This document shows positions 8,754-47,505 of a DNA stretch of 64,000 nucleotides, in pieces (position 1 is the stretch's first letter; each line of letters starts with the position of its first letter). The translations under genes were made by a program, and so were the position numbers. The notes beneath the pieces are model-generated. The model had not been told where the DNA came from. It was given only the letters and a program-made list of their open reading frames with translations, and did not search any database. This DNA is from Nitrosomonas sp. Its GTDB lineage: Bacteria; Pseudomonadota; Gammaproteobacteria; Burkholderiales; Nitrosomonadaceae. The stretch is from positions 1 to 64,000 of the forward strand of contig JAMWZR010000010.1 in NCBI GenBank assembly GCA_024282035.1. Reading direction: 5' to 3'.

Positions 8754-9250
8754 AGTTTCTTTGTAATTCCTTATATTTCTACTTGTATAGTTAACATATG
8801 GCAATTATTCATGGATGCCTTCCTAAGTTACAACAGCAATACAGTAGAATTTTCAATTAAAGAACAGACACCATCCACTTATCGCGAGAAGTGGTCGATG
8901 AGTTCTGAGTTACCTGCAGTGGCAAGCAGACAAATGATAAACATTTTCGAGGAAGCAAAAAGACGCAGTTTATAGATAACGAGCATTTGGCCTATTCTCA
9001 ACACCGTAGGTTTGATGTTGGGCTTTCTTCGGTAGCCCAAACTAACGCGTTCGGTATTCCAGCAGAGTCTTCGATAAAACAATCGGCCTGAATTCCCAAG
9101 CACCAATTATTGCGCAGTCCTGATCTTTTCCTAAATGACTCACCAAAAAGGAGAAATTCGGAGGTGCTGGCTTACCGAGATCCGGTTTAATGTTTTGGTC
9201 GTTGCATGACTGCTATGTCAAGACGCGCCCCCTTGTTCTGCGTTTCTTGG
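8754..9250. other. Intergenic region without a supported gene; contains a hairpin repeat
   Basis: About 500 bp. Short open frames here have no recognisable protein character. TTGGGCT (9018-9024) and AGCCCAA (9034-9040) form a hairpin inside a GTAGG...AGCCCAAACTAACG context that resembles dispersed intergenic hairpin repeats of betaproteobacteria. It marks the left edge of the AT-richer ATPase/nuclease module, so it may be a scar of insertion. Confidence 0.4.
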
Positions 9251-9808
9251 TCACAGCGGCTTGCCAATCAATTTACGCAGATAAATTTTCTCTCCATTTT
9301 GTACAGGTAATATTTGAGCGCGCTCTGGAGCGTCGTTTTCTGGCATCTCGATTAATGGCGCTTTGTTAAGGGGGTTCTTAGCAGCATCATGAAACACAAA
9401 ATAACGACGCGGCCAATGTGCAATAGTTTGACCGTTATACGTCATAAGCAAACTATCGAGATAGTTCAAAAAACAATGCGCACTTCGAAATTGTTCTGTC
9501 GCTTCATGACGGGAGGGTTCGCTTGACTTCAGTTCGCAACAGAGTATGTAGGGCTCATCCCCAACAACACAAAAGGCAACAGCATCGCATGCACGGTGCA
9601 TAGGGTGTGGCACATTAAACACGTTGCTCCCTGGAAAGCCACACGCATCAAACTTCAGTGCGAAGGCATTTTGTCCCACGCTCACAATATTGATGCTCTT
9701 GAGGCTGGCCTGTTTATGGCTTTCTGTAACAGTGAGCGTTGAATCTTCGCCTTGAACACATTTACTTGGGTTGAATATTTGACCAAGAGTTTGCAACACT
9801 TGTGTCAT
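9251..9808 (-). CDS. Putative PD-(D/E)XK-type nuclease partner of the upstream ATPase
   Basis: About 185 residues; family not recognised. Within it, CDAVAF is followed 15-16 residues later by YILCCELKSS, giving an Asp-x(n)-Glu-x-Lys arrangement (about D76, E93, K95 counting from the GTG at 9811), with a Gln in EATEQFRSA 12 residues on. That spacing and the flanking beta-strands are what a PD-(D/E)XK nuclease core shows; this is inference, not proof. An HPMHRA segment precedes the Asp. The ATG at 9808 overlaps the ATPase TGA by one base (TGATG), so the two are translationally coupled. An alternative GTG start lies one codon upstream. Likely role: effector nuclease of a two-protein system. Confidence 0.6.
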   Translation of the reverse strand: MTQVLQTLGQIFNPSKCVQGEDSTLTVTESHKQASLKSINIVSVGQNAFALKFDACGFPGSNVFNVPHPMHRACDAVAFCVVGDEPYILCCELKSSEPSRHEATEQFRSAHCFLNYLDSLLMTYNGQTIAHWPRRYFVFHDAAKNPLNKAPLIEMPENDAPERAQILPVQNGEKIYLRKLIGKPL

Positions 9809-11214
9809 CACTCGCCCCCATAGCGCAGATCATCCTGCATCCGACCCATATCAAAAATGGTTTTATCAAAGGACTTAACATCAATTCCGAGCTTCTCGTC
9901 AGGAGTAACTTTTAAAAGGGTCTTGAGCGTACGTTTGTTTTTTACTCCTTCAACGGCAAACTTGGCCTCCCCAGTTACATACAAAACAACCTTGTCATGG
10001 GTAAGTTGCTCGTTTTTTCCATAGCCATGTTCGATGCGAATTTTTTCAAAATGAGGAAGATTGCGCGAAAGCATGATAAGGGTATTGATCTCCCGAATGA
10101 TTGTATCGCTGTGTGTAGTGATAAATACCTTAACACCTGCATTAACCAAGGCGGCAATAAAACGAGCCATCTTTCGTTGATTTTCTGGGTGCAAATTAAG
10201 CTCCGGCTCATCAACCATAAGCAAATCACCTTTTATTGCTTGATATTTGAGCCAATACCAAACAATAAGCAGTGATCGTACCGCGCTTGACGCTTCGCCA
10301 AGCCCTAGTTTTACTTTGGCGCCTTTGGGCTGGAAATAGGTAACTCCATCCTTATTCGTTGAGTAGTGACCACCAACGATTTGAGTAAATTGATCGAGCA
10401 ACGAAGGCTCTTCCTTGAGCAATGGACTAAGCTCGCTCTCGGCACTTGGCAAAGCGTTCGTAAAGCGAACGTTATCATCGACGGGCATCGCATAGTCCTT
10501 TCTACGATATATGGTCTCAAATACCATGCCGGGTGTTAAATCGCCACCTCCATCCTTATGTGTCTGCGTTAACAAATCAATAATACGATTTTTTGCTAAG
10601 TTCAATTCGTTGCGAAAGGTGGTCGCTCCAGTACGTTCTGTACTGACCATAAATACGTTTGGCATGCTGCCAGACAGAATCATGTCAACTAGAGCCTCCT
10701 CGATAAATTCTTCCAATGAACTAATTGGAGAATTCATGCCTTCATTAGGTTTAGGGGCAGCAATTTCTACGATTGAAGAGTTTTCTTGCTTAAGAATGGT
10801 AACAAGAAGCCTGTCCTTTCCGCTCCGCAACTCTCTTGAATATTTATCTTTCTTCCAGCGATCATCAATTTTTATCAAAAAATCAAGCTTTGTGCTCTTG
10901 AACAAATCACTTTTCGACGCGAGCATTTCAGGAAGCGCATTGTGAAATCTCTCCAAAACAGACTGACTAATAACAGACCATTCATTAACAATTTTTTCCT
11001 GCGCGTCAATTCTCACAACACCAGATCGTCGTAGTTCCTCGAACTCTTTCGACAGATGAAGATTAATCAATCTTTTCCAGGTTTTTAGCAAACAATAAAG
11101 CGCGTAGGTAACATAGGTTTTACCTGTATTATTTTCACCACAAACTATAGTGAAATCTGCAAGCTCTATTTCTCCCTTATCGAGGGCACCTAAGTTCTCA
11201 AAAGACAATTTCAT
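9808..11214 (-). CDS. OLD/ABC-like AAA family ATPase
   Basis: 468 residues. Walker A GENNTGKT at 26-33; ABC-like signature LGLGEASSAVRSLL near 303-316; Walker B LLMVDEPELNLHP near 331-343; His switch TTHSD near 366-370. This order is that of the SMC/RecF/OLD-type ATPases found in phage-defence systems and some toxin-antitoxin systems. The C-terminal 90 residues carry no TOPRIM motif that I can see, so it is an ATPase without its own OLD nuclease. AGGTT/GAGG lies 5 nt before the ATG at 11214. It is the first gene of a coupled pair with the putative nuclease. Base composition is visibly AT-richer than purT and queG upstream. Confidence 0.8.
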   Translation of the reverse strand: MKLSFENLGALDKGEIELADFTIVCGENNTGKTYVTYALYCLLKTWKRLINLHLSKEFEELRRSGVVRIDAQEKIVNEWSVISQSVLERFHNALPEMLASKSDLFKSTKLDFLIKIDDRWKKDKYSRELRSGKDRLLVTILKQENSSIVEIAAPKPNEGMNSPISSLEEFIEEALVDMILSGSMPNVFMVSTERTGATTFRNELNLAKNRIIDLLTQTHKDGGGDLTPGMVFETIYRRKDYAMPVDDNVRFTNALPSAESELSPLLKEEPSLLDQFTQIVGGHYSTNKDGVTYFQPKGAKVKLGLGEASSAVRSLLIVWYWLKYQAIKGDLLMVDEPELNLHPENQRKMARFIAALVNAGVKVFITTHSDTIIREINTLIMLSRNLPHFEKIRIEHGYGKNEQLTHDKVVLYVTGEAKFAVEGVKNKRTLKTLLKVTPDEKLGIDVKSFDKTIFDMGRMQDDLRYGGE

Positions 11215-11290
11215 ACTAACCTCGCTTTAAATGTAGCTATCACACACAAGGGATTACATCTTGACATCACATATTAACAATCAACTCATC

Positions 11291-32801: not shown

Positions 32802-34208
32802 TTAGAAACGGTAAGAGGCCAGTATACCGAAGAGATCCCAATGTTGTGTTGTTCCGGCTGCAGTAGGGTTATCAAGTCGCGATAGCCAGCCCGTTCCGTT
32901 CACATGATGATATTCTGCACGCAGCATAAATTCCGGTGTGACATTCCAGCGCAGCCCTACTGTAATATCCTTGGCAAACCGGGTATGCGGAATTGCTCCA
33001 AACTCAGCTGAAAACTGACTGCCATCCCTATCATGCCTGTCAGCAAAGTATGCATCATATCTCACAAATCCTTCCCATCGGGGTGTAAAACGATATTCCC
33101 CCTGAAAATAATAACTTTCTCCAGTAAAGTTTCTTCCATTAAAAAGAAATTTATTACCAAATTTATCATTATAGGAAATATTACGAATTGCATATTCTGA
33201 AGTCAGACTCCATTTTTCGGCATTATACTGAGCTGAAAAATAGATGGGTGTAAATAGAAATGAACCCGAACCAATGGGGTCTTGTGAATGAAATGAAGGA
33301 TCATAGGATGTATTCAGCCAGATTCCACTGACACCAAGGCGCAAGCGTTTATCATTTGTCTCAAAAATACCACGTCCGATATAGGAGGCTTCTCGATTCA
33401 AAGAACCCTGTCTTAGATGAGTAAGAACTACTGAAGATTCCGTATCTTTATCACTGACAATGGGCCACCATACACCAAACTGAGCTGAAAAAGTACCCAA
33501 ACTGGATATCGCTTTTTCGCCATAAATTTGAACTGAATCACCCGACAACCCGAGATTCCGGGTACGGTCAAAATAAATCGATTGTGGCAACAAGATACCA
33601 GGACGGGTAAACGCAACATCTCGCGTGTCATTATAAAAACCAAATGGATTTTTTAATCGTCCCACACGAATGCCAAACTGATCCGCTTCATGCGAATACA
33701 CCTGATAATCCAGAAAAGCATAATCGAGACGCGGCATGCCGGTATTGCCCTCCCCTGCCCGACGCGATAAAACCTGCGCAGAGACCTGCAATTTAGGTAA
33801 GGGCCGTGCTGAAGCATTCAAAGCCGCTTCCGTCAGACCGAAACTGCCACCTTTGTCGCTATTGCCAAATACATCATTGTCCGAAGTGGCAATATAGGCC
33901 TGGGTTACAAAACCATGAATCTGGAGATCACCGGGTAATTCATTATTTCTGAAACGATTGATAGTCGAACTGACCCATCCCGGTTTTTTCTTGTTGTCTT
34001 CCACACCGGTTGCTTCAGCAGGCAATTCCGATGTTTTAAACCAATTGCTCAATGACTGCAAAGGTTTGAACTCTTGTTGTGTGCCAGTTTCCGATTGTGC
34101 CTGAGCCGAAACACTTCCGGCCAGCATCATGATGACTAGCCACCGGATCTTGCGCGAGAGATTCTCGCACAGACAGCTACTTAATCTGGAGCACGTTAAC
34201 TGATTCAT
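32802..34208 (-). CDS. Outer-membrane porin-like beta-barrel protein
   Basis: About 468 residues from ATG 34208 (GGAG upstream); the frame is open to a TTG at 34265. A signal peptide ends at VSAQAQ. The rest is a run of alternating beta-strands with aromatic girdle residues, ending in the classical outer-membrane C-terminal Phe (LASYRF). Phrases like YAFLDYQVYSHEADQFGIRVGRLKNPFGFYND resemble phosphate-selective or DUF-type porins. Its start overlaps the PstS-like gene by 32 bp and its stop lies 12 bp before the GGDEF/EAL ATG. Ligand unknown; anions are a guess from the PstS-like partner. Confidence 0.82.
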   Translation of the reverse strand: MNQLTCSRLSSCLCENLSRKIRWLVIMMLAGSVSAQAQSETGTQQEFKPLQSLSNWFKTSELPAEATGVEDNKKKPGWVSSTINRFRNNELPGDLQIHGFVTQAYIATSDNDVFGNSDKGGSFGLTEAALNASARPLPKLQVSAQVLSRRAGEGNTGMPRLDYAFLDYQVYSHEADQFGIRVGRLKNPFGFYNDTRDVAFTRPGILLPQSIYFDRTRNLGLSGDSVQIYGEKAISSLGTFSAQFGVWWPIVSDKDTESSVVLTHLRQGSLNREASYIGRGIFETNDKRLRLGVSGIWLNTSYDPSFHSQDPIGSGSFLFTPIYFSAQYNAEKWSLTSEYAIRNISYNDKFGNKFLFNGRNFTGESYYFQGEYRFTPRWEGFVRYDAYFADRHDRDGSQFSAEFGAIPHTRFAKDITVGLRWNVTPEFMLRAEYHHVNGTGWLSRLDNPTAAGTTQHWDLFGILASYRF

Positions 34209-34662
34209 TAATATTTGCTCTCCATAAATAACCAATTGCTCCAGGTGTACTCGCAACCTTGGCAAGCATTTCCTCGTTTGAATTTACTTTGATAGGCGCC
34301 TGACCGGTTCCTGAAAAAACCAACCGATCCCATGTGGATCGTAATTGATAGGGAAAAACATTTAATTTTTCCTTGGCAACGATCTGGTGTAATTGATCGT
34401 CATCCGCTAATACGAAAACTCTGATCTTGGTTCCATCCGTCCAAGTTTTAAGTCGCATACTGAAAATGGAACGCAACACGTTACCTGAAACGGTATTCTC
34501 GGTTACCCCCGTGTTGACTATAATTTCAGGTTGTTCGTTTGACCAAGCATTTAAATTGATAAATAAGAATACTGCAAATAAGAAGCAGCCGATAAATGCT
34601 CTTCTTTTCAGTATAAAACGACTAAATATCCGAATATGCAAAATGAATTGGAGTAGTCTCAA
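34177..34662 (-). CDS. Short PstS-like periplasmic binding protein
   Basis: 161 residues. A signal anchor (AFIGCFLFAVFLFINLNAWS) is followed by a single small domain with VNTGVTENTVSGNVLRSIFS, TKIRVFVLADDD and the end motif TPGAIGYLWR; this is the half-size PstS/PBP-like family that often precedes a porin and a GGDEF protein. No ATG precedes the signal; the likely start is TTG at 34662 with AGGAAG four bases upstream. It sits 8 bp after the acyltransferase stop. Role: possible periplasmic ligand (phosphate-like anion) sensor subunit; inference from family and neighbours. Confidence 0.75.
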   Translation of the reverse strand: MRLLQFILHIRIFSRFILKRRAFIGCFLFAVFLFINLNAWSNEQPEIIVNTGVTENTVSGNVLRSIFSMRLKTWTDGTKIRVFVLADDDQLHQIVAKEKLNVFPYQLRSTWDRLVFSGTGQAPIKVNSNEEMLAKVASTPGAIGYLWRANINESVNVLQIK

Positions 34663-34670
34663 AAAACTTC

Positions 34671-35438
34671 CTAATTCGACATCTTCTGGGTAGATAAGGG
34701 ATTATATTTACCAGCATCTGTTAATACGTCCCATGCATCGCGGTGGTTACTATACATTCGCTTTAGTACGTCTTCCACTTTGACAAAATAAGGACGTCGC
34801 ATCCCGTGATAATTGACTGCTGGACCAATTGGAGTAAATGCCAATCCATCAAAACTTAACAATCGATTTAATGGCGTATCCATCATCGATAGCCAATTCT
34901 GGATATTGTGCTGCATAGACATTCGCATGACACCAGCCATCAATACCAGTGCAATAGTCAATCCGGAACGACGATCTGGAGTATGGCGTTGCTCCTTAGC
35001 TGCATCTTCTGCGCCCGGCTGATGCTCCCCTTTACGACGGTTTTCCTTACGGCGATTGAATCGGTTAATCACGACGAAACGGGATACTTCTGCAGTTTGT
35101 TGGCGTGGTAATCTGTCCACATCGCAGAGGTTGAGATCCAGTTGCGTATTTAATTCAACTGGAAAAGGTTTTTGTGGCTGCTTAGGATCAAATAATATCA
35201 ATCTAACTGTACCAATATATTCTCCAGTAGATTGAAACTTTAATAAAGCATGGATGGAGTGAATGTCGTTGTCATCCTTTTCCTGTTCATCCGGAAACTG
35301 TGAAGGCTCAAAGCCCGGAATACGCTGTTCCACACATAACACCTGATAACGAATTTTGTAAACTTGCTCAAGTAACTGCGGTGTATCTGCAATTTCAATT
35401 TCAAAGTATTTATTGAAGCTTTTATATAATTCGCTCAT
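34671..35438 (-). CDS. PEP-CTERM/exosortase system-associated acyltransferase
   Basis: 255 residues from ATG 35438; further ATGs at 35456 and 35498 are possible. The start MSELYKSFNKYFEIEIADTP and then YKIRYQVLCVEQRIPGFEP match the GNAT-like acyltransferases (autoinducer-synthase-like fold) found with exosortase A. A low-complexity basic insert (NRRKENRRKGEHQPG) splits the domain, a family trait. The cofactor-binding part follows near LALVLMAGVMRMSMQ. The acyl donor and acceptor are unknown. It opens a four-gene minus-strand run leading to the GGDEF/EAL gene. Confidence 0.85.
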   Translation of the reverse strand: MSELYKSFNKYFEIEIADTPQLLEQVYKIRYQVLCVEQRIPGFEPSQFPDEQEKDDNDIHSIHALLKFQSTGEYIGTVRLILFDPKQPQKPFPVELNTQLDLNLCDVDRLPRQQTAEVSRFVVINRFNRRKENRRKGEHQPGAEDAAKEQRHTPDRRSGLTIALVLMAGVMRMSMQHNIQNWLSMMDTPLNRLLSFDGLAFTPIGPAVNYHGMRRPYFVKVEDVLKRMYSNHRDAWDVLTDAGKYNPLSTQKMSN

Positions 35439-35880
35439 CACATCACCCAGATCCATGCTTGTATAAATCCTTTTTATCAGATAAAAGTAAAAATACAATT
35501 TTCGTCAACTGCAAGAACTGCCACTAAGCGCGAAAAACGCCTGCAAATATAATGCAAGTCGAATTGACCGCATTCAAGAAAAAGGATACTAACTTGGCCT
35601 TTTTTTAAGCCTCATGTTGTTTTCTATGCTTCGGAATTATTCAGTTTTATTTTTAATTGACTCAAAGCATCCAACAAGCCATTTAACAAATACTTTTCAT
35701 TCAGTGACTAAGTGATACAGGGGCATTATATTCGCAATTCAAATTGATTATTCAATAGATCGTGATCTAAAGAATGAAGAATTGCAGCTTAATAATGAAT
35801 TTGTACACAATATGCAACATATTGTGCTGTTTTTTTCATGATGAATCTAATTGAAATCCGAAATAGTTCGATGGAGAGTG
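35439..35880. other. AT-rich intergenic region with no supported gene
   Basis: About 440 bp between two minus-strand genes of the exosortase-linked group. It is clearly AT-rich and has no convincing coding frame. It holds a terminator-like hairpin facing the plus strand (see separate entry) and the promoter region of the acyltransferase operon. A small RNA on the plus strand is possible. Confidence 0.5.
35806..35833 (+). terminator. Terminator-like hairpin, plus-strand orientation
   Basis: CACAATATG (35806-35814) and CATATTGTG (35818-35826) form a perfect 9-bp stem with a CAA loop, followed by CTG and a run of seven T on the plus strand. No plus-strand gene precedes it within the window's recognisable genes, so it either ends an unannotated transcript or is bidirectional. 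The stem is AT-rich and therefore weak. Confidence 0.5.
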
Positions 35881-37116
35881 TCATACCAAAACTTCAATCG
35901 GCTCGGGATGATTCAGAAACGCAACCGGACTCGCAGTTAATCCATAGGCACCTGATTGCAATACCACAACCAAATCCCCAATGCTTGCTCTAGTGACGGG
36001 GATTTGTTCCGCCAAAATATCAAGCGGTGTGCACAACGGTCCGACTATTGTGACCACGTCATCGGCATTTTGATGAATTTTGTTTCCAATCAGAACCGGA
36101 AAATTCTTTCGTATTACCTGACCTAAATTTCCAGAAGCGGCCAGGTGATGATGCATCCCGCCGTCCGTCACCAGAAAAATTTGCCCGCGTGATGTTTTGC
36201 GCTCCACGACACGGCAAACATAAATCCCGGCTTCCGCCACGATATAGCGCCCCAGTTCCATGGCTATTTCTATGTTTGGAAAGATCTGCTTGATATCGTA
36301 TACCAATCCGTGCAAACGTTCACCAACAGCAGCAAGATCCAGGGGGTGTTGCCCCGGGAAATAGGGAACACCCAGTCCCCCGCCAATATTGAGCCACGGA
36401 ATAGCCACTCCGGCCTGGTGTGCAATCTTTGTCGCCAGTCGAATCGTTTTTTCCTGCGCCTCGCAAATAGCAGATGTATTTAGATTCTGCGATCCACTAA
36501 AAACATGGAGTCCCACAAAATTCAATCCCAATGTGCTAATACGTTGCAGCAATGATGGAACCTGTTCTGCATCGATACCAAATGGCTTGGCCCCTCCCCC
36601 CATTTTCATTCCGGAAGACTGGAGCTCAAAATCTGGATTCACCCGGATCGATACCCGAGGCAACATGCCAAGTTCCTCGCCACATTGCACAACACGCTCC
36701 ATTTCACTTGCAGACTCAACATTAATGACCACATCTGATGCCACAGCACTACGCAATTCTTCCAATCTTTTGCCCGGACCGGAAAAACTGATTCGGTGCG
36801 AGGTTATCGGTGTATCCAATGCTACTTTCATTTCCCCCATCGAGGCGACGTCCATGCCATCCACCAATTTCGCCAAATGCTGCACCACTGCTGGCATAGG
36901 ATTGGCTTTCATGGCGTAATATAACTGTATCTCAGGCGGCATATATCGCCGCAACAATGCAACACGTTCAGAAATTTTTTTTCTGTCGTAGGCATAAAAA
37001 GGAGTGATTCCAACACGTTGAACCAACCGAGTCAGTGACATGCCGCCTATCTGCAGGCAGCCATCCTTTACATCGAGCGACTCCAAAGCAGCATGCTGAG
37101 GAAATGAGTTATTCAC
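35881..37116 (-). CDS. Exosortase-A-associated pyridoxal-dependent decarboxylase
   Basis: 411 residues, alanine-racemase-like fold III PLP enzyme. PLP lysine in QLYYAMKANPMPAV, glycine motif in LNIGGGLGVPYF, ELGRYIVAEAG and the active-site cysteine segment GPLCTPLDILAE. It belongs to the decarboxylase group found beside exosortase A together with an AMP-forming acyl-CoA ligase, probably building part of an exopolysaccharide or lipid. The start is GTG at 37116, overlapping the ligase TGA by 4 bp (GTGA). Confidence 0.9.
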   Translation of the reverse strand: MNNSFPQHAALESLDVKDGCLQIGGMSLTRLVQRVGITPFYAYDRKKISERVALLRRYMPPEIQLYYAMKANPMPAVVQHLAKLVDGMDVASMGEMKVALDTPITSHRISFSGPGKRLEELRSAVASDVVINVESASEMERVVQCGEELGMLPRVSIRVNPDFELQSSGMKMGGGAKPFGIDAEQVPSLLQRISTLGLNFVGLHVFSGSQNLNTSAICEAQEKTIRLATKIAHQAGVAIPWLNIGGGLGVPYFPGQHPLDLAAVGERLHGLVYDIKQIFPNIEIAMELGRYIVAEAGIYVCRVVERKTSRGQIFLVTDGGMHHHLAASGNLGQVIRKNFPVLIGNKIHQNADDVVTIVGPLCTPLDILAEQIPVTRASIGDLVVVLQSGAYGLTASPVAFLNHPEPIEVLV

Positions 37117-38874: not shown

Positions 38875-40266
38875 ATGGTACGTACACGTTTTGCACCCAG
38901 TCCAACCGGCTACCTCCACATTGGCGGTGCTCGCACAGCACTATTTTCTTGGGCTTTTGCGCGCAAGCATGGCGGAAAGTTCATTTTACGCATTGAAGAT
39001 ACAGATCAGGAACGATCGACCCAACAGTCTACTCAAGCCATTCTCGATGGTATGGCATGGCTGGACCTGGATTACGATGAAGGTCCGTTTTATCAAATGC
39101 AGCGTCTGCAACGCTATCACGACGTCGCAGAACAACTGCTACGAAACAATCAGGCGTATTACTGCTACGCCACAAAAGAAGAACTGGATGAAATGCGCGA
39201 GCGGCAACTCGCAGCTGGTTTGAAACCACGCTATGACGGGCGTTGGCGTGACTCAAAACAAACTCCCCCGGCGGGAGTTAAACCGGTATTGCGTTTCAAA
39301 AATCCACTGGAAGGCTATGTAACATTCAACGACCTGATCAAGGGACGCATCAGTGTTGCCAATCAAGAACTGGATGATTTAGTGTTACTGCGCGGTGATG
39401 GCATACCCACTTATAATTTCAGCGTGGTTGTGGATGATCTCGACATGCAAATCAGTCATGTCATTCGAGGAGATGATCATGTCAATAACACACCACGGCA
39501 AATTAACATCCTCAAGGCATTGGATGCCACACTTCCTGACTACGCACATGTACCAATGATCTTGGGTGCCAATGGCGAACGATTGTCGAAGCGCCATGGC
39601 GCCGTATCTGTTATGCAGTATCAGGATGATGGTTATCTGCCGGAAGCACTGGTGAATTACCTAGCTCGGCTCGGCTGGTCACATGGTGACGAAGAAATTT
39701 TCAGTCGCGAAGACCTGATCAACTGGTTCGATCTATCTTCGATCAGTCGCTCACCAGCAAAATTCAATCCTGAAAAGTTACACTGGATCAACCAGCAGTA
39801 CCTTAAAAAGACTGATAACACAGCCTTGGCCAAGCTTGTCGTTCCTTACTTGAAAAAAGATGAATGCAATATCGCCAATGGCCCCGACTTGTCATGTGTT
39901 GTTAACTTACTGAAAGAAAGAGTCAATACGATTGAAGAACTAGCAGATGCGTCAGTGTATTTTTATCGTCAACTTGAGCCCAGCGACGAACTTAAGGATC
40001 AATATTTTAACAAAACATCAAAAAAACTCCTTACAGAACTGACGCAGAACTTAGAGACCATTGAATGGAATCGCGAATCCATTCATGAAGCAATAAAAAC
40101 CTTTGCAAAAAATCAAAATTTAAAACTGCCTCAAGTAGCCATGCCCCTGCGCGTGATGGTCACCGGAGAGGTTCATACGCCTTCAATTGATGCTGTACTT
40201 GAATTATTGGGAAAAGACAAAGCTATGTTACGCATCCATCAGCATCTCAACACAATTGTGGATTGA
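38875..40266 (+). CDS. gltX: Glutamyl-tRNA synthetase
   Basis: 463 residues. Class I synthetase: SPTGYLHIGGART (HIGH motif) near residue 9 and LSKRHGAVSV (KMSKS-type motif) near 240. It charges tRNA-Glu; whether it also mischarges tRNA-Gln cannot be told. The tRNA-Ala and tRNA-Glu genes follow within 160 bp, so enzyme and substrate tRNA are neighbours. The 3' part of the gene (from about 39,900) is AT-richer than the start. Confidence 0.95.
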   Translation: MVRTRFAPSPTGYLHIGGARTALFSWAFARKHGGKFILRIEDTDQERSTQQSTQAILDGMAWLDLDYDEGPFYQMQRLQRYHDVAEQLLRNNQAYYCYATKEELDEMRERQLAAGLKPRYDGRWRDSKQTPPAGVKPVLRFKNPLEGYVTFNDLIKGRISVANQELDDLVLLRGDGIPTYNFSVVVDDLDMQISHVIRGDDHVNNTPRQINILKALDATLPDYAHVPMILGANGERLSKRHGAVSVMQYQDDGYLPEALVNYLARLGWSHGDEEIFSREDLINWFDLSSISRSPAKFNPEKLHWINQQYLKKTDNTALAKLVVPYLKKDECNIANGPDLSCVVNLLKERVNTIEELADASVYFYRQLEPSDELKDQYFNKTSKKLLTELTQNLETIEWNRESIHEAIKTFAKNQNLKLPQVAMPLRVMVTGEVHTPSIDAVLELLGKDKAMLRIHQHLNTIVD

Positions 40267-40273
40267 ACTTTTC

Positions 40274-40302
40274 TTTACAATGAATCATGGCATCAGTATA
40301 AT
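40274..40302 (+). promoter_or_regulatory. Strong sigma-70-type promoter for tRNA-Ala
   Basis: TTTACA (40274-40279), a 17-bp spacer and a perfect TATAAT (40297-40302) lie 18 bp before the tRNA-Ala gene. Position, spacing and sequence all fit; transcription should begin near 40309. Confidence 0.7.
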
Positions 40303-40319
40303 CGCTCTTCCTTTGATCA

Positions 40320-40395
<76 letters not shown>

Positions 40396-40409
40396 GTTAA
40401 TCTTTAGAG

Positions 40410-40418
40410 TGCTATAAT
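40410..40418 (+). promoter_or_regulatory. Extended -10 promoter before tRNA-Glu
   Basis: TGC followed by TATAAT (40413-40418) forms an extended -10 element 9 bp before tRNA-Glu. No good -35 box is seen, as it would fall within the end of tRNA-Ala. The tRNA may also be read from the tRNA-Ala promoter. Confidence 0.45.
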
Positions 40419-40426
40419 TCAGTTTT

Positions 40427-40502
40427 GTCCCCATCGTCTAGAGGCCTAGGACATCGCCCTTTCACGGCGGTAACACGAGTTCGAATCTCGTTGGGGACGC
40501 CA
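40427..40502 (+). tRNA. tRNA-Glu (TTC)
   Basis: 76 nt with encoded CCA. Starts GTCCCCATCGTCTAGAGG as glutamate tRNAs do, anticodon loop in CCCTTTCACGG gives TTC, T arm GAGTTCGAATCTC, and the acceptor closes with GGGGAC. It lies 160 bp after gltX, the gene for its synthetase. Confidence 0.95.
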
Positions 40503-40713
40503 CATATAGTTCATTTTTTTCATAACTCAAGATTTAAAAACTGTATTATCCGTGTATTACTCCCCAATGTAGTTGATATTTGTATGCACTTACTACAGTA
40601 GTTTTATTCCTTTTTGTCTGAGAAATTAATAAAATTCGCCGAAAAATCCTGAATTTTATTCTGGATATGCTAGCCAAGTAACAGACTAAAAGGTATTATG
40701 CGCGCTATCAGAA

Positions 40714-40803
40714 GGAGGTGTGGCCGAGCGGTTTAAGGCAGCAGTCTTGAAAACTGCCGTAGGGGTGACTCTACCGTGAGTTCGAATCTCACCGCCTCCG
40801 CCA
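40714..40803 (+). tRNA. tRNA-Ser (TGA)
   Basis: 90 nt with encoded CCA and a long variable arm (GTAGGGGTGACTCTACC region), as in serine tRNAs. Acceptor GGAGGTG pairs with CGCCTCC; the anticodon loop CTTGAAA gives TGA; T arm GAGTTCGAATCTC. A run of accessory genes (parDE, Rhs pieces) follows, so it is a candidate integration site, but no copy of its 3' end is seen further on. Confidence 0.95.
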
Positions 40804-41023
40804 ACGATCCAGTATCCATGCCGTTCTTAGCCAAATCACCCAGGTATTCCCATCAATCATCCCATCAAAATATTTTTGGTTTAACGCCTAATTTTTAGGA
40901 TAGCCGCACAGAAAAGCTGACCTTCTACATCTACGGATAGCCTTTGAATACTATTTCAAGCCTCCACCGGCGATAACAGTCTTATCTAATTGAAATCGGA
41001 TTCTGATTATCGTTTTCTTGTGA

Positions 41024-41040
41024 TGGCAATATTTGCCATT
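41024..41040. promoter_or_regulatory. Palindrome upstream of parD, candidate ParD operator
   Basis: ATGGCAA and TTGCCAT form perfect 7-bp arms around a 3-bp centre, 49 bp before the parD start codon. ParD proteins repress their own operon by binding palindromes in this place, so an operator is a reasonable inference. Confidence 0.45.
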
Positions 41041-41088
41041 TTATGTTATTTGTGTCACAGTAAGCGACAAGATAAGGAGGATGCATCT

Positions 41089-41349
41089 ATGCAAAGTATG
41101 AATATCTCTCTGCCCGATCCCTTGAAAAAATTCGTGGATGGACAAATTGCCCAGGGCCGCTACAGCAGCGCCAGCGAATATGTTCGCGAATTGATCCGTG
41201 CCGATGAAAAGCGCAAAGCTGAACAACAACTTGAAGCCAAGTTACTGGAAGGATTGAGCAGCCCAGAAAGTGAATTGACCTCTGCAGACTGGAGTGAGAT
41301 TCGCAAAGAAGCCTTAGCTAAGCTGGAAGCACGAAAGAAACAACCTTGA
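41089..41349 (+). CDS. parD: ParD-like antitoxin
   Basis: 86 residues from ATG 41089, which has AAGGAGG 8 bp upstream; the frame is open for another 99 bp before that. The N terminus MNISLPDPLKKFVDGQIAQG and YSSASEYVRELIRADEKR is the ribbon-helix-helix DNA-binding domain of ParD/CopG antitoxins, and the charged C-terminal tail binds the toxin. It should neutralise ParE and repress the operon. The TGA overlaps the toxin ATG by one base. Confidence 0.9.
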   Translation: MQSMNISLPDPLKKFVDGQIAQGRYSSASEYVRELIRADEKRKAEQQLEAKLLEGLSSPESELTSADWSEIRKEALAKLEARKKQP

Positions 41350-41591
41350 TGCCTAAAATCTATCAACGAGCGACAGCGAGGCGCGACTTGGTAGAGCATT
41401 TCGTTTATCTTGCGGAAAATGCGAACCTGGAAACAGCTGAGCGCTTTTTGACACAAGTGGAGGCCAGCTTCAACGATCTGGCTGAGCGCCCAATGATTGG
41501 CGCACCATTGATGCTCCATGATCCGGCATTGGCAGGCATGCGTAAATGGCCGGTTACAGACTTTGAAAATCACCTATCCGTTATTCGGTAA
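41349..41591 (+). pseudogene. parE: ParE-like toxin, C-terminally shortened
   Basis: 80 residues. The RelE/ParE fold is clear: ATARRDLVEHFVYLAENANLE, ERFLTQVEASFNDLAERPMIG and MRKWPVTDFENHLSVIR. Family members are about 95-100 residues, and after FENYLIFYR they continue with two more beta-strands and a conserved late arginine/histidine region. Here the frame stops directly after VIR, so about 15-20 residues are absent. No continuation was found in the other frames. The toxin is probably inactive or altered, although ParD may still bind it. Confidence 0.7.
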
Positions 41592-41651
41592 AATGAGTTA
41601 AAAATCTTCATCTGTTCCGTACTTGTATCCTACCCCCCCCCCTGAAATTGT

Positions 41652-41762
41652 GTCGGAACAGTCGGAATAGTCGGAACAAAATCCAGAAACCCGCATGGAT
41701 GCCTGCTTTACGTGTTCCGACTTTTTACAAAAACGTTCCGACAAACCCCGTTTTATTCCGAC
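41652..41762. repeat. Cluster of 9-bp direct and inverted repeats (iteron-like)
   Basis: Three exactly contiguous forward copies of GTCGGAA(C/T)A lie at 41652-41660, 41661-41669 and 41670-41678. Three inverted copies follow: TGTTCCGAC (41713-41721), CGTTCCGAC (41734-41742) and TATTCCGAC (41754-41762). A partial inverted copy (TGTTCCGTAC) lies at 41613. This is a protein-binding array in form; replication iterons or a recombinase/primase site are possible readings. Confidence 0.75.
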
Positions 41763-41931
41763 AATTCTGGGGAATCAAGGGGTTTTACGCTCTGGTATAA
41801 CTCGACTTCTTGAGAAGCACAAAGGTATTAATGCGAAAATCCCAGTTTTGGATCTGTCAGTCCTTTCAAAAAATATTTCCTTTTGAATATCCTCATATTT
41901 GTTAAGTAATAACAACTTCTGAATTGATTGG

Positions 41932-41947
41932 TGTGATTTTTATCACT
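41932..41947. promoter_or_regulatory. CRP/FNR-like site upstream of the PEP-CTERM gene
   Basis: TGTGA, six bases (TTTTTA), then TCACT is one mismatch from the CRP-type half-sites. It is about 210 bp before the start codon, so it could act from afar or be chance in AT-rich DNA. Confidence 0.3.
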
Positions 41948-42156
41948 GAAGAAATATTGAAAAATGACTATTTTGAATTTCTCAGGGTGTGAGGTCTTCC
42001 CAAAAACCCTACACTTGTAACGAGACCGGTAACAGGTGAGAAAATTTAAATAATATCAGCATCCTTTCACATAAACTTGCTAAGGCACCGTCATCAAAAC
42101 ATTTTTGATAACTTAGTTCTTCAAGCAGTAAAACACCATTCTCCCAAGGGATCATC

Positions 42157-43368
42157 ATGAGCATGTCATACAAATGTACAAAACTTAAATTTATTACTAT
42201 TTTTCTAATTGGGAGTTATATCGCATCAAATGCTGCACTTGCAAACGCGGGATGGTCAATTAGAGGATTGGAGAATTTAGGTGGAAACGATAGTTTTGTA
42301 AATGCGATTAACGACTCTGGTCAGATAACGGGGAGCTTCCTTGACAATGGTGTTTATCACAGTTTTATAACAGGTAATAACGGCATAGGGATAACTGACA
42401 TTGGCAGTTTGGATGGAACCGATAGTTTTGCTCGAGCGATAAATAATTTCGGGATAGTAGCGGGTGAATCTCCAAATTTTGATTCAATTTTCTCACATGC
42501 ATTTATAACAAGTCTTGACGGAAAAAACATTACTGATGTAGGTAATATAGGTGTTAATGGACAAGTTTATGGCATTAACGATTCTGGACAAATCGTCGGA
42601 GATTTGGATTCTATCAATACTAACGGTTCTCATGCCTTTATCACGGGTCCTAATGGTAATGAAATAACGGATTTGGGTACGCTGGGAGGGGTGTTTAGTT
42701 CAGCTACTGGCATCAATAATTCTGGACAAGTAACGGGATGGGCTCAAAAAGGAAGTGATGGCAGTGTATCTGTTGATAGCCATGCTTTTATTACCGGCCC
42801 TAACGGCGTAGGGATGAACGACTTGGGTACTCTAAATGGCAACTTCAGTGTTGCCAATGGCATCAACAATTCGGGACAGGTTGTGGGAAATGTTGGAGAA
42901 GTCAGCGAGATCTATTATCACAATGCTTTCATTACAGGGGCTAACGGTGTGAATATGACTAACCTTGGTACATTGGGAGGCCACTTCAGTGATGCACTGA
43001 GTATCAACGACGCAGGGGAAGCAGTGGGGTGGGCTGAAACGGCAGACGGAGATATGCATGCTTTCTTATATAGCCATGGAGGGATAACTGATCTTTCGTT
43101 GTTAGATGTGGTTATCGCTGGCGGGTGGAAGAGCATTTTCACGGCTGACATCAACAACAATGGACAAATTATAGGAAATGGAATTAACGCTCATGGCGCA
43201 TCCGAAGCATTTTTGCTGTCCTATACACCTGATACCATATTTACGCCGAATCCCATATTTATTCCAACGCCTCCTCCACCAATTCCCGAACCTGAAACTT
43301 ATATGATGTTATTGGCTGGATTAGGATTGATGGGTTTTATGGCATGGCTGAGAGAACATAAGGTTTAA
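42157..43368 (+). CDS. HAF-repeat protein with PEP-CTERM sorting signal
   Basis: 403 residues. A signal peptide ends near ALANAG. The body has about seven repeats of about 45 residues, each with a phrase like GINNSGQVVG, usually with HAFITGPNG and DLGTLGG before it (the HAF extracellular repeat). The C terminus has PIPEPETY, a hydrophobic segment (MMLLAGLGLMGFMAW) and basic RE..K end, the PEP-CTERM signal cut by exosortase A. It should be exported, processed and attached to surface polymer. The exosortase-associated ligase, decarboxylase and acyltransferase lie 4-7 kb away; the exosortase gene itself is outside the window. Confidence 0.88.
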   Translation: MSMSYKCTKLKFITIFLIGSYIASNAALANAGWSIRGLENLGGNDSFVNAINDSGQITGSFLDNGVYHSFITGNNGIGITDIGSLDGTDSFARAINNFGIVAGESPNFDSIFSHAFITSLDGKNITDVGNIGVNGQVYGINDSGQIVGDLDSINTNGSHAFITGPNGNEITDLGTLGGVFSSATGINNSGQVTGWAQKGSDGSVSVDSHAFITGPNGVGMNDLGTLNGNFSVANGINNSGQVVGNVGEVSEIYYHNAFITGANGVNMTNLGTLGGHFSDALSINDAGEAVGWAETADGDMHAFLYSHGGITDLSLLDVVIAGGWKSIFTADINNNGQIIGNGINAHGASEAFLLSYTPDTIFTPNPIFIPTPPPPIPEPETYMMLLAGLGLMGFMAWLREHKV

Positions 43369-43622
43369 CTTGAGTAATAGCGAAAAACCTAGTGAGATAA
43401 AATTCATCGTAACCAAGAAAAAGACTTTGATCGCGGATAATTTTCTTGGAAATAATGGAAACGGCTGGACGGCAGATTAACTTCTCACAAAACGCCGTAC
43501 GCATAACAAAATACCGCCACATACATGGAGGCGTGGAGGGAAATGTCAAATCAGATCCATGTAATATCAGATTATTCTGCATAAAGGTACCAAAAGTCCC
43601 ATAGGGATTTGTACATTGATTT
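43369..43622. other. Short unassigned stretch before the Rhs remnants
   Basis: About 250 bp with no convincing gene or RNA. It separates the PEP-CTERM gene from the Rhs remnants. No terminator was recognised after the PEP-CTERM gene. Confidence 0.4.
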
Positions 43623-43802
43623 GATCACTCTTGGCATGTTGAAATGATCGGCATGGATATAGTAAATCTGGATCGGGCTAGTGGCAGTGGCTTTGCGGAT
43701 CACGGCCACTGGAATATCCTCCAGCCAGATGGTTTCCTGCCGCACCAGCCAGTCATCCATCGGTGTAGCGGTGGAAGCATTGTCCCTGCATTCGCCGATC
43801 AA
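43623..43802 (-). pseudogene. Rhs core fragment C (relic)
   Basis: 180 bp closely matching 44775-44954 within Rhs fragment B (roughly nine in ten bases by eye). In the minus frame it reads IGECRDNASTATPMDDWLV..., then WLEDIPVAVIRKATATSPIQ and IYYIHADHFNMPRV, the conserved Rhs segment before the tip (IHTDHLNTPR type). It lacks everything before and after. It is the last piece of an array of Rhs tips and immunity genes. Confidence 0.8.
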
Positions 43803-43870
43803 ATATTTCTAATTCGAGATCTGCTTCACATGTTTAGATAAATTTCTATTAAAGTAAATTAGTATTAAAT

Positions 43871-44281
43871 CTATCTGTCGCCATATACATTTAAAGCCAA
43901 ATCAATTTGTAGCATACCAAGCTTTTTCAATAAGATATTACTAAATATATCGCCAGTATTACCAGTTGAAAACCAGCCAATAAAGAATTCGATACTTCCT
44001 CCACCATCTCGAATTCGACAAAAGAGAGGCTCATGTTGAAAAAGCATATCAACTGTTCGGTCTAGTAGTTCGTGCAATTCCTCATCGTTATTAGGTTGAA
44101 TTGAGAATGAGCAATAGTTCCTATCATAAATTCCATCAAGAAGCGTTCCTTTCGGGCTTTTCCTTTGCTCACCAATTTTATTTAGCCATTTTGGCGCCAT
44201 ACCTAATTGAGAACATATAACATCAGGATCAATTGTTTGCGTAAAAAACCTTAAAGAGACTTCAAAAGTAAATTCATGCAT
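43871..44281 (-). CDS. Candidate Rhs immunity protein (DUF4279-like)
   Basis: 136 residues, no signal peptide. HEFTFEVSLRFFTQTIDPDV, QLGMAPKWLNKIGEQRKSPK and DELHELLDRTVDMLFQHEP (here EELHELL) resemble the DUF4279 pattern, a family often next to polymorphic toxins. It lies 12 bp after the broken tip of Rhs fragment B and before fragment C, the place of an immunity gene. Assignment to the family is from memory of its pattern. Base composition is AT-rich relative to the Rhs pieces. Confidence 0.6.
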   Translation of the reverse strand: MHEFTFEVSLRFFTQTIDPDVICSQLGMAPKWLNKIGEQRKSPKGTLLDGIYDRNYCSFSIQPNNDEELHELLDRTVDMLFQHEPLFCRIRDGGGSIEFFIGWFSTGNTGDIFSNILLKKLGMLQIDLALNVYGDR

Positions 44282-44293
44282 AGTAACTCTAGC

Positions 44294-45480
44294 CTATGGT
44301 AAATAATCTTCAAATGGACCGTGATTTACTGCCTTCCCTTCAGAGTCTCTCGTAATAACATTGCCATCAGGCGTTATGCCAGTCCAATCTTTTGGCTTTG
44401 GGTCATCCATAATGCGCCAACCCCTGCACTTAAGTGGCTGCACAAGCTGGGTTCCCAGCACAAGCAACGAGAATGGCAGGAATTGCTTCACCCGTGAGAT
44501 CGGCAAAACCCATCGGGTTGCTAGCCACATACCCATAAATATTGAGTCTTCCAGCGAGCCCGACTGGACCAGGCGATACATACCGTCCAGTCTCAGGCTC
44601 ATAGTATCTGAAGTAGTTGTAATGCAGATTTGTTTCTTTATCGAAATATTGCCCCGGGAATCTGGGATGATATTCAAACAACTGGGCATTGCCATCCGGG
44701 TCTTTATCAGGCAGATTGGCGCCAAATACATGGGCGTTCTCCCAATGCCAGACGATGGTGTTAGCAGTGTTCACGATCACTCTTGGCGTGTTGAGATGAT
44801 CGGCATGAATATAGTAAATCTGGATTGGGCTAGTGGCAGTGGCTTTGCGGATCACGGCCACCGGAATATCCTCCAGCCAGATGGTTTCCTGACACACTAG
44901 CCAGTCATCGGTTGGCGTAGCAGTGGATGCATTGTCCTTGTACTCGCCGATCAATTTCCCATCGGGGTCATAGAAAAACATGAACTTCGAACTCAATGGG
45001 CAATTTTTAGTGATGCGCTGATCCAAAGTATTGTATTTATGAGTATGTTCGGCATTGTTGATAGTGGTTGGGCTTGCCCGCCGCATTCCAGGTAAATGTC
45101 GTCAAACCATCGCTCAAGGAATTGCCGGCAGCATCATAGGTGTATGTTTTCATTACCGGCCCGGCCACAGATTGCAAGCGGTCACTGTTTGCTGCCAGAG
45201 TGTATAGGTAATTGGTGGCACCGATCTGAGTGTTCGTGCGGTTACTGCCGGCATCATAACACCAGAGCCTGAAACCGGTGGTGTCCGATTCACTGGTTAA
45301 ACGATCCAGTGCGTCATAATCATAGCTGCGGTTATATTCCGGATTGATATCGGTAGTACCGGTAATACGGCTAGCAGCATCGTAGGCCAATGTGCGAGTA
45401 TCGCTGCCGACACGGTGGGTCTTGAGTCGGCCATCGGAGTTAAAGGTGTACACATAGGTTTGGACGTTGTCCATATTAAG
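44294..45480 (-). pseudogene. Rhs repeat protein fragment B, frameshifted
   Basis: Read on the minus strand it starts abruptly near 45480 with YD-repeat sequence (YAFNSDGR-type, LAYDAASRITGTTD, YDYDALDRLTSESD, YDAAGNSLSDG), shifts frame near 45075 in a CCC run, continues through [34 protein letters not shown] and LNIYGYVASNP, then shifts again near 44445 into the tail DWTGITPDGNVITRD and HGPFEDYLP. The tip is thus present but out of frame. A full Rhs protein would be over 1000 residues; this is only the C-terminal piece. Secreted polymorphic toxin remnant. Confidence 0.82.
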
Positions 45481-45534
45481 CTTTCAAAGACTGGATTCAG
45501 TCAATTCCCGGATGACGCACGCTTATCCAGGTTA

Positions 45535-45867
45535 CTAGGTAAACCCAGTTTTATCTGGATCATGATTTCCCATCAACGAAAAGCATAACTCGCGAAGTTC
45601 ATATAAGGTACGATTAATCAGATTTCTTTCTTCCGTGCTCAGCGGCCTATTATTTTCATCGAGGCATACAGCAAATATCTCATCGAGCACTCCCCATTTA
45701 CGTATCAACTCATTTCGTTGAGAAAGTGAAAAATTTTCTAGTGCCCTTATTAATCCTTCGATATTAGAAACCAAGGACGATAAGCTAAGATTTCCTTCCT
45801 CAAAGCTATTAATACATTTAACAAGTCGATCAAGTTGACGCAAGTTATATTCACTTAAAATTGCCAT
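45535..45867 (-). CDS. Candidate immunity protein for the Rhs tip A
   Basis: 110 residues, helical, acidic and leucine-rich: AILSEYNLRQLDRLVKCINS, LSLSSLVSNIEGLIRALENF, RNELIRKWGVLDEIFAVCLD. Not a family I can name with certainty, though similar proteins occur as immunity proteins beside contact-dependent toxins. Its ATG follows the toxin TAA with no gap (TAAATG), which argues for translational coupling and a toxin-immunity pair. It appears intact. Confidence 0.6.
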   Translation of the reverse strand: MAILSEYNLRQLDRLVKCINSFEEGNLSLSSLVSNIEGLIRALENFSLSQRNELIRKWGVLDEIFAVCLDENNRPLSTEERNLINRTLYELRELCFSLMGNHDPDKTGFT

Positions 45868-46600
45868 TTAATCCTCCATAGTTCTGCGAAGGCCGGAGGG
45901 CAGACCCCACCGGACTGACACCGTGTTTCCGGTATTGTGGTTAACAACGATAGTGACATTAATCACCACACTATAATACTGGGATGTTGAAGAGGTCTTA
46001 CCAAGATACTCAGAGCCTGTAGTAATTGTGTTGTTTACAACAGATGGCGGTATTCCACGAGCTTGCATTAGATCAAATGCATGTCCAGAAAAATTTCTAC
46101 CACAAACATTTCCACCTGGCTGTTGCGCTTTAGGTAGTACCTGAAACTGACTTCTCGAGCTACCAACAGGATAGTTTGCCGTTCGAGGTGGAGCATTATC
46201 AATACTGAGACAAAATCGCCCATAACTCCACCCCCCAGGACGATTGCCTGGGTTTAATGCAATGCTTTTTGGATTGCCACCTCCACGATTTCTGGCTAAT
46301 CCATTAAAATCGATCCAGCTGATCGGGTCATTTTCAACATATCCATAAACATTCAATCCCCCCGCCAACCCAACCGGATCAGGCGACACATACCGCCCCG
46401 TTTCAGGCTCATAGTAACTATCGTTTCGTTTGCCGAAAGAATCACCAGATACTTGAAGCCAATTATGTGGGCGAACGTGTATTGATTGCACCAGAAACAT
46501 GTGGCGACTTTCAGACCACGGCAACACCGGGCAGGTCAAAAGTATAGCTGACTGGTTTTGTAGACCGTTTGCAGCGTCATATTTTTGTGTGCGGGAAATC
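45868..46600 (-). pseudogene. Orphan Rhs C-terminal tip A with toxin domain
   Basis: The minus frame is open from about 46620 to 45868. From about 46425 it has the Rhs core end: [20 protein letters not shown], then [20 protein letters not shown]. The variable tip follows (about 120 residues), ending with [20 protein letters not shown], then [13 protein letters not shown], which looks like a small DUF4258/BECR-type RNase toxin. No Rhs body or secretion part is attached, and only weak Rhs-like wording (KYDAANG) precedes it, so it is an orphan tip. The toxin-like tip itself looks intact. Confidence 0.7.
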
Positions 46601-46631
46601 TGGATGGGGGTATACCCCAGTCAGTGACATA

Positions 46632-46665
46632 ATCAGAGGTTTGTCAAAAACCTACGACCTCTGAT
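46632..46665. repeat. 9-bp inverted repeat at the edge of the Rhs array
   Basis: ATCAGAGGT (46632-46640) and ACCTCTGAT (46657-46665) are perfect inverted repeats 16 bp apart. The place, between the minus-strand Rhs array and the next plus-strand gene, would suit a terminator for neither; an element end or a protein site is possible. Confidence 0.4.
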
Positions 46666-46751
46666 CCTTAGAGAGATCGCTTAGAGGTGTGCTCAAAAAA
46701 ACGAATTGGAAAGTGGGTAGGTATTGGAGAAATGAACTTAAAGAGATCGAC

Positions 46752-47021
46752 ATGAAGAAATGTATTAAGTACCAGGCACCATTTGAAGAAACAACAAACA
46801 ATGGAAGAAACAAATCCTATTGTTCGGTTGCATGCAGGCGATCCACTGAACTAGAGATAAGGCGGATCAACGACCGAATAGCAGGATTGGAGAAAGTCTC
46901 TGAAAGCTACAGAATGAATATCCTGGTTCTTGAGCTTTACGGTTCGGAAGAAAGTGTAAATGCTGAACTCAACAGGCAGGAAATCAGGTTGAAGGAACTG
47001 CTGTCCGTAATGACTGACTGA
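46752..47021 (+). CDS. Small zinc-ribbon-like protein of unknown function
   Basis: 89 residues from ATG 46752. It has MKKCIKYQAPFEE, then NGRNKSYCSVACRRSTELEI, then a helical charged tail rich in Glu, Arg and Leu. The layout is that of a treble-clef finger (CxxC ... CSxxC), but the first pair reads CIKYQ, so the second Cys is replaced (Tyr). A helical coil follows, as in small proteins of mobile elements. Function unknown; DNA binding is a guess. Confidence 0.55.
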   Translation: MKKCIKYQAPFEETTNNGRNKSYCSVACRRSTELEIRRINDRIAGLEKVSESYRMNILVLELYGSEESVNAELNRQEIRLKELLSVMTD

Positions 47022-47505
47022 TTAAAGTTGAAATCGATCAGAATGACTGTCTAAAAATTGGGCAGCGATTAAAAATAAATAACTCTATTAACATAAAGTT
47101 ATTTATCCATTGTGAATGACACTGCCCCACCACTCTACAATCCACACACATCCGCATCAGCCCATATAATATCCTGAATAGATTATTGCAATCGACTTGC
47201 CTTTCGTGGCAGTCCAAAATAATCCATTGGAAGTCAGCAAAAAAGTATGGTAATAAAGCGTAGTAACAATTTTTGCCAAAACAATTGCCATTTCATGCCC
47301 ATCATGGACTCCTTGATTAATGTAACTTGTAAGAATCCACTTACCCATGACAACAAACCTCACAAGCAGCATGACAGACAGGGTATTAATCATTCGGTAT
47401 ATCTAGACGATTACAAGTATTGGCAGCTGCGATGACCAAAATTTTTATCATCAACATCAAATCAGTTGTAGTGTCCCAGTTTACATTTCCACCATGTGAG
47501 AAATC
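47022..47505. other. Intergenic region with one doubtful reading frame
   Basis: About 480 bp. A 78-codon minus-strand frame (47157-47393) has hydrophobic and aromatic stretches (IVTTLYYHTFLLTSNGLFW) that could be the remains of an immunity-type protein, but there is no ribosome site or homologue that I can name. No other feature is seen. Confidence 0.35.

Follow-up and report, generated by a model that had tools for sequence, protein, structure and literature searches.

A Nitrosomonas chromosome carries a probable anti-phage gene pair of the PD-T4-4 type

Two coupled minus-strand genes (9251-11214) in the window, i.e. the whole 64,000-nucleotide stretch of Nitrosomonas sp. DNA that was analysed, very likely constitute a chromosomal anti-phage pair of the PD-T4-4 type. 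The pair belongs to that family by profile, its catalytic residues are intact, its small protein has a predicted nuclease-like fold, its two genes recur together and its distribution is patchy and horizontal. By analogy with PD-T4-4 and with the related WonAB system, we infer that it acts against phage, that its proteins form a complex and that ATP controls their activity. The first-pass annotation, which had proposed a defence module of an OLD-type ATPase with a separate PD-(D/E)XK-like nuclease, was correct in its observation, which profiles, active-site conservation, the predicted fold and the pairing support. The novelty that it implied does not hold, since membership of PD-T4-4 / PDC-M47 makes the pair an ordinary member of a described family; its design is already reported in print (PMC9519451, PMC12137116, PMC12839542).

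The upstream gene, confirmed by a sequence check as an open reading frame at 9808-11214 on the minus strand, encodes an OLD-type ABC ATPase of 468 residues belonging to the PD-T4-4_A / PDC-M47A family, as judged from PADLOC and Pfam profiles, invariant residues and a structural model. It matches the PADLOC model PD-T4-4_A almost from end to end (1e-159, 530.6 bits, residues 1-467 of 468 on profile positions 1-458 of 460), with PDC-M47A next (5.4e-141), and is also matched by Pfam AAA_15 (4.4e-29) and, by sequence profile in PADLOC, by PARIS AriA (1.8e-33). The Walker A, signature, Walker B and His-switch motifs originally read from the sequence are borne out by conservation, in that K32, S309 and S310, D335 and E336, and H368, respectively, are invariant across 42 aligned relatives; R194 is listed with them among the key residues of the protein. 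The supposed lack of a TOPRIM part was likewise upheld, neither the ATPase nor the small protein having a Pfam match to a TOPRIM family at E values up to 10, and membership of the OLD nucleases, PARIS or Gabija was rejected on this ground. The PADLOC OLD, GajA and ATPase-Toprim models match the ATPase, their best stretches falling in its ATPase part. The predicted structure has a pLDDT of 85.3 and is weak at 196-204; among the 50 Foldseek matches shown, which run from a best E value of 2.2e-10, for retron IA / Septu-type ATPases, to 2.2e-7 and have low query TM-scores (0.27-0.36), are retron IA, Septu PtuA, retron Eco8 and GajA, together with cohesin and Rad50 heads. A scan of viral contigs with the ATPase confirmed no relative.

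The downstream gene, confirmed in the same way at 9251-9808 on the minus strand, encodes a small PD-(D/E)XK-like nuclease of the PD-T4-4_B / PDC-M47B family, an assignment based on PADLOC, conservation and a structural model. The protein is 185 residues long from its ATG, or 186 from an alternative GTG at 9811, one codon upstream. It had been described as unrecognised, which proved mistaken: PD-T4-4_B matches it at 7.4e-18 with a modest 63 bits (residues 20-180 on profile positions 21-188 of 190), and PDC-M47B follows (5.7e-12). Pfam, NCBIfam and PHROGs gave zero matches, and searches of PDB sequences returned one weak, unrelated match with the protein alone and one chance-level, unrelated match with its profile.

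The proposal that D76, E93 and K95, with a Gln 12 residues later, are spaced as in a PD-(D/E)XK core stands as to the residues, which are conserved as D75, E92, K94 and Q106 in the 185-residue count from the ATG used here; the numbering given with it counts from the GTG (186 residues), and so disagrees with the accompanying length of 185 residues, which counts from the ATG. Among 95 partner proteins, the window's included, D75 is kept in every one, position 92 is Glu in 86 and Asp in nine, position 94 is Lys in 92 and Gln in three, and position 106 is Gln in 91 and Lys in four; outside this set of residues, position 29 is Glu in 92 and Asp in three, and position 54 is Asp in 87 and Glu in eight. 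The D...(D/E)xK active site conserved in the PD-(D/E)XK superfamily is present in the small protein and in nearly all of its counterparts, and its conservation in these proteins exceeds chance. In three relatives (L044, L070, L084) Gln at position 94 occurs together with Asp at position 29, and their B enzymes may be altered or inactive.

A PD-(D/E)XK core has, in order, a helix, strands that carry the Asp and the ExK motif, and a further helix. The AlphaFold2 model of the small protein, obtained with 62 aligned sequences (pLDDT 92.6, pTM 0.89), has helices at 2-11 and 100-125 and strands at 24-28, 38-42, 76-82, 85-94 and 134-141; D75 immediately precedes strand 76-82, strand 85-94 carries both E92 and K94, and helix 100-125 carries Q106. 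Judged on the order of its elements, the model has the expected core. The structure prediction that the first-pass annotation had suggested as a check is therefore favourable with regard to the placement of the residues, the matches to solved structures being not significant. Foldseek gave none at E <= 0.001, and the first six rows, comprising PaqCI (two chains), Bse634I, FokI, BamHI and Avs3, have E values of 0.041-0.12 and TM-scores of 0.21-0.31, with unrelated proteins from rank 7 on. Viral models searched in the same manner also gave no match at E <= 0.001.

The two genes are coupled, as had been noted, by a TGATG overlap of stop and start (9806-9810, minus strand), the TGA of the ATPase gene being at 9810-9808 and the ATG of the small-protein gene at 9808-9806; counting from the first possible start codon, 83 of 95 pairs have frames that abut or overlap. 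Conservation of the pairing was assessed in the best 80 of at least 374 loci confirmed in a scan of species genomes, in 16 further loci, which came from 13 genomes out of 397 others in the phylum, and in five named records, with a partner defined as an open reading frame of at least 150 residues starting between 60 bases before and 120 bases after the ATPase stop. By this definition, 73 of the best 80 loci have a full partner gene behind the ATPase (more distant relatives lie outside this count), as do all 16 further loci and all five named records. Among the seven loci with no full partner, four (L051, L062, L075, L076) carry the start of B before the contig breaks off, another (L064) has 88 bases remaining and two (L011, L069) have a broken B remnant. 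The ATPase is therefore not found mostly without its partner, and no confident match of the small protein to a non-nuclease family was obtained, these being the two results that had been named as telling against the proposal.

Across 92 A-B pairs, among them that of the window, the identities of the two proteins correlate (Spearman 0.83, against a maximum of 0.24 in 500 label permutations), which argues for joint inheritance and not for contact, because relatedness common to both genes gives the same signal. The partners have likely been exchanged in L010 and L012, as judged from sequence identities: their ATPases are 53% and 51% identical to that of the window, their nucleases 23% and 26%, and these nucleases are nearer the E. 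coli type (37% and 32%).

PD-T4-4 is an anti-T4 system of E. coli that was found experimentally and is located in an ICE-like element (Vassallo et al. 2022, PMC9519451); a review table gives its domains as PD(D/E)XK plus P-loop (PMC10952713). As in the window pair, the gene for the ATPase comes first and that for the small nuclease-like protein second, and the window has both of the gene matches by which PD-T4-4 is recognised, i.e. a near full-length A match and an adjoining B match. An E. coli relative, L006, which scores 8.4e-210 and 7.5e-98 against the two PD-T4-4 models, adjoins conjugation (trb) genes, which fits the published ICE-like location (PMC9519451), whereas the window pair occupies a chromosomal spot among housekeeping genes. 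The window and L006 are 34-36% identical in the ATPase and 27% in the nuclease, and in a midpoint-rooted ATPase tree a branch with an SH-aLRT value of 88, below the 95 mark, joins the window's group of 10 with the group of five that contains L006. PDC-M47, a candidate system in PADLOC, matches both window genes, although both score higher to PD-T4-4; for a cyanobacterial relative (L020), in contrast, PDC-M47 is the best model for both genes.

WonAB, from the WASA-1 prophage of V. cholerae, resembles the window pair by description, being an OLD-type ABC ATPase with a variant PD-(D/E)XK nuclease; its authors call PD-T4-4 similar and place WonAB in a larger family of ABC-ATPase sensors with nuclease effectors (PMC12137116; see also PMC12409358). 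The same gene logic is described for operons of OLD-ABC ATPases with novel REases in R-M-like neighbourhoods (Krishnan et al., cited in PMC12137116) and for OLD-ABC plus PD-(D/E)XK modules in BREX (PMC12839542). A related ATPase is found in Septu PtuA, retrons Eco7/Ec78/IA and Eco8, Gabija GajA and PARIS AriA. The nucleases of Septu, those retrons, Gabija and PARIS are of the HNH or TOPRIM type, whereas the small protein of the window matched neither in Pfam or NCBIfam. Septu membership was rejected on the missing HNH match of B in these two collections and on its D-ExK type of active site, in agreement with the earlier view that the partner is not the HNH nuclease of Septu.

With respect to mechanism, the ATPase would dimerise through its ABC motifs, and the dimer would sense some sign of phage infection while holding or licensing the small nuclease, which, once triggered, would cut nucleic acid such that the phage cycle is not completed. 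We lean slightly towards host RNA as the target, with abortive infection as the outcome, rather than phage DNA, because overproduction of WonB, a protein of 16.1 kDa, is reported to stop translation while genomic DNA stays intact (PMC12137116). In WonAB both genes are required, and mutants of the ATPase and of the nuclease lose protection (PMC12137116).

It is possible, though short of probable, that the pair instead restricts directly, with the ATPase recognising or sliding on phage DNA and B acting as a DNase that cuts this DNA without death of the cell. PD-(D/E)XK enzymes are mostly DNases, and the first Foldseek rows of B, albeit not significant, are mostly DNA restriction enzymes. Of 11 systems having parts that resemble DNA-binding or DNA-cleaving ones, moreover, 7 gave direct immunity, according to a passage of the published study that does not name PD-T4-4 (PMC9519451). 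The effect of WonB on translation, with the genomic DNA spared, points away from such restriction (PMC12137116).

Slightly less likely still is a role for the pair as a guard or back-up module that monitors a restriction or BREX system and is triggered once a phage disables it, the window copy then standing apart from such an operon. PARIS guards in this manner with Ocr. When the flanks of the best 80 loci were screened with proteins that PADLOC had named as BrxC, PglX, DrmD-like or type III methylase, such a gene was present in the fetched flank of 17, which is a lower bound given the narrow homology screen. The pair lies between a brxC gene directly upstream and a pglX gene directly downstream in six of the 80 (L025, L035, L039, L048, L050, L061), and in L026 brxC is upstream of the pair and the contig then ends; the six BREX-flanked pairs are PD-T4-4/PDC-M47-like. 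A type III methylase gene directly follows the pair in four of the 80 (L009, L012, L013, L086), with a 4-base overlap in L009 and L013, two members of the group of four that includes the window. That OLD-ABC plus PD-(D/E)XK modules are associated with BREX is already published, in a 2026 survey that proposes them as back-up effectors (PMC12839542). The window's own genome has, on contig C48, matches to HSDR_N (6.5e-9) and N6_Mtase (7.7e-74), which suggest a type I R-M locus there.

Against a guard role, no R-M or BREX gene is beside the window copy, no BrxC match was found in its genome, and the R-M/BREX-type genes, subject to the lower bound given above, are in only 17 of the 80 loci. The genes adjoining the window copy are themselves housekeeping-like. 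In a survey of hand-picked neighbours scanned with PADLOC (61 of 145 nearest and 61 of 113 far), 209 families were matched in the nearest set versus 125 in the far set, the top family being in five versus two proteins; R-M genes occur in both sets and no statistic was drawn. E. coli MG1655 carries its own type I R-M system. Subject to that qualification, the report that PD-T4-4 functioned in this strain when cloned alone (PMC9519451) also counts against a guard.

A toxin-antitoxin pair, in which the ATPase merely neutralises the nuclease, is improbable; the genes are coupled, and toxin-antitoxin-like genes are at the same site in some congeners, but the ATPase motifs are invariant, which is unexpected for a mere antitoxin, and overproduced WonB is toxic only when active WonA is present, simple sequestration having been ruled out (PMC12137116). 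That the pair is decayed or housekeeping, with no role in defence, is highly improbable, since despite its housekeeping neighbours and the broken B remnants in L011 and L069, its frames and catalytic residues are intact, it is absent from all 60 related genomes searched and it is homologous to tested defence systems.

The pair is distributed patchily. At E <= 1e-10 the ATPase was absent from all 60 related genomes searched (36 congeners and 24 genomes of the same order); relatives occur in five loci labelled Nitrosomonas in another collection (L008, L010, L028, L048, L050) and also in Cyanobacteria, Thermodesulfobacteriota, Chloroflexota, Gemmatimonadota and Methanosarcinaceae. The nearest relative in the best 80 of at least 374 loci, L008, is 85% identical in the ATPase and 79% in the nuclease, and its DNA is common with that of the window over 9242-11229 only, so that some 2 kb behave as one unit. 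L028 and the window have 2.8 kb of 70% identical DNA in common elsewhere in the window.

The pair is AT-richer than its neighbours, as originally observed, with a GC content of 42.7% against 53.5% for the downstream gene, of sodium:sulfate-symporter type, and 53.2% for the upstream gene, of aldose-epimerase (mutarotase) type, both of which look housekeeping. The possibility that the rest of the window is a defence island was rejected, 10 further proteins from its AT-richer half having no PADLOC match at 1e-8. Two stretches of the window, 33000-36000 and 40000-48000, are AT-richer (GC 0.38-0.45 per kb), and three tRNA genes are at 40320-40803; of four proteins scanned in these stretches, one each matched Porin_O_P, Acetyltransf_5 and PEP-CTERM and the fourth nothing, with no PADLOC match among them.

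Neither gene of the pair was found in the regions surveyed from 12 of the 40 congeners, which were chosen by size of contig, and the window's transporter gene is in only four of the 12 (L135, L136, L138, L141), so the neighbourhood itself varies. The variable chromosomal spot is at 8805-11290, beside the mutarotase gene. Next to this gene G029 has a RelA_SpoT protein matching the PADLOC candidate PDC-S33, plus a Gp49/HTH pair; G022 has Gp49 and a SecB-like protein, G013 a PIN_12 protein, G016 a DUF4760 protein, G031 LemA and an unknown 388-residue protein, and G020 a 341-residue protein with no family match. A further stretch by the mutarotase gene, in G023, has a HerA_C ATPase, which may be ordinary.

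The pair is bracketed by an imperfect inverted repeat (ATGTCAAGA..CCCTTGT; 22 nucleotides, 77% complementary), the left member of which is at 9215-9236 on the plus strand and the right member, located by repeat search and pattern scan, at 11246-11267 on the minus strand. Five congeners (G013, G016, G020, G022, G023) have a sequence like the right member after their mutarotase gene, and TGTCAAGAYSTGAYCCCTT, at up to 2 mismatches, has two matches in the window's 2.93-Mb genome, which are the two repeat sites; short two-copy repeats, it should be said, often arise by chance. A first inverted-repeat pattern gave no signal, with 3 genome matches versus 3 in the reversed control. A second pattern, built post hoc from the window repeats and the congener sequences, gave 27 matches in 13 of 41 genomes, versus 0 of 41 for its reversed control; 25 of the 27 are in 12 of the 40 other genomes and 9 of the 27 are at the site from which the pattern came. 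Inward-facing copies bracket cargo at the same site in G013 and G023, and elsewhere in G031 a looser pair (2 and 3 mismatches) stands around a short Mrr_cat protein. Against a cassette, the copies in L164 and L165 have the same orientation rather than being inverted, and many copies stand singly. A possible known relative of the motif was sought in the literature, and no paper on it turned up. Since the pattern was made after the fact, the inverted repeats with changing cargo at the site are a lead rather than a result. On a wider and more speculative view, which we consider rather unlikely, PD-T4-4-type pairs would serve as exchangeable back-up effectors, entering and leaving BREX and type III R-M operons; in this genus the pair would be cargo of a short integrase-less cassette, bounded by inverted repeats of about 20 bp, that loads a fixed mutarotase-side hotspot with changing defence or toxin genes.

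The overall results identify a nuclease first guessed from residue spacing alone as component B of a family of tested defence systems, and the 95 aligned partners point to residues worth mutating. Because our search of the literature on PD-T4-4 and WonAB found no paper that works out the PD-T4-4 mechanism, a divergent but intact two-gene copy is usable for comparison. The variable spot, where related genomes have differing defence- or toxin-type cargo near a short inverted repeat, is relevant to how small integrase-less defence cassettes move.
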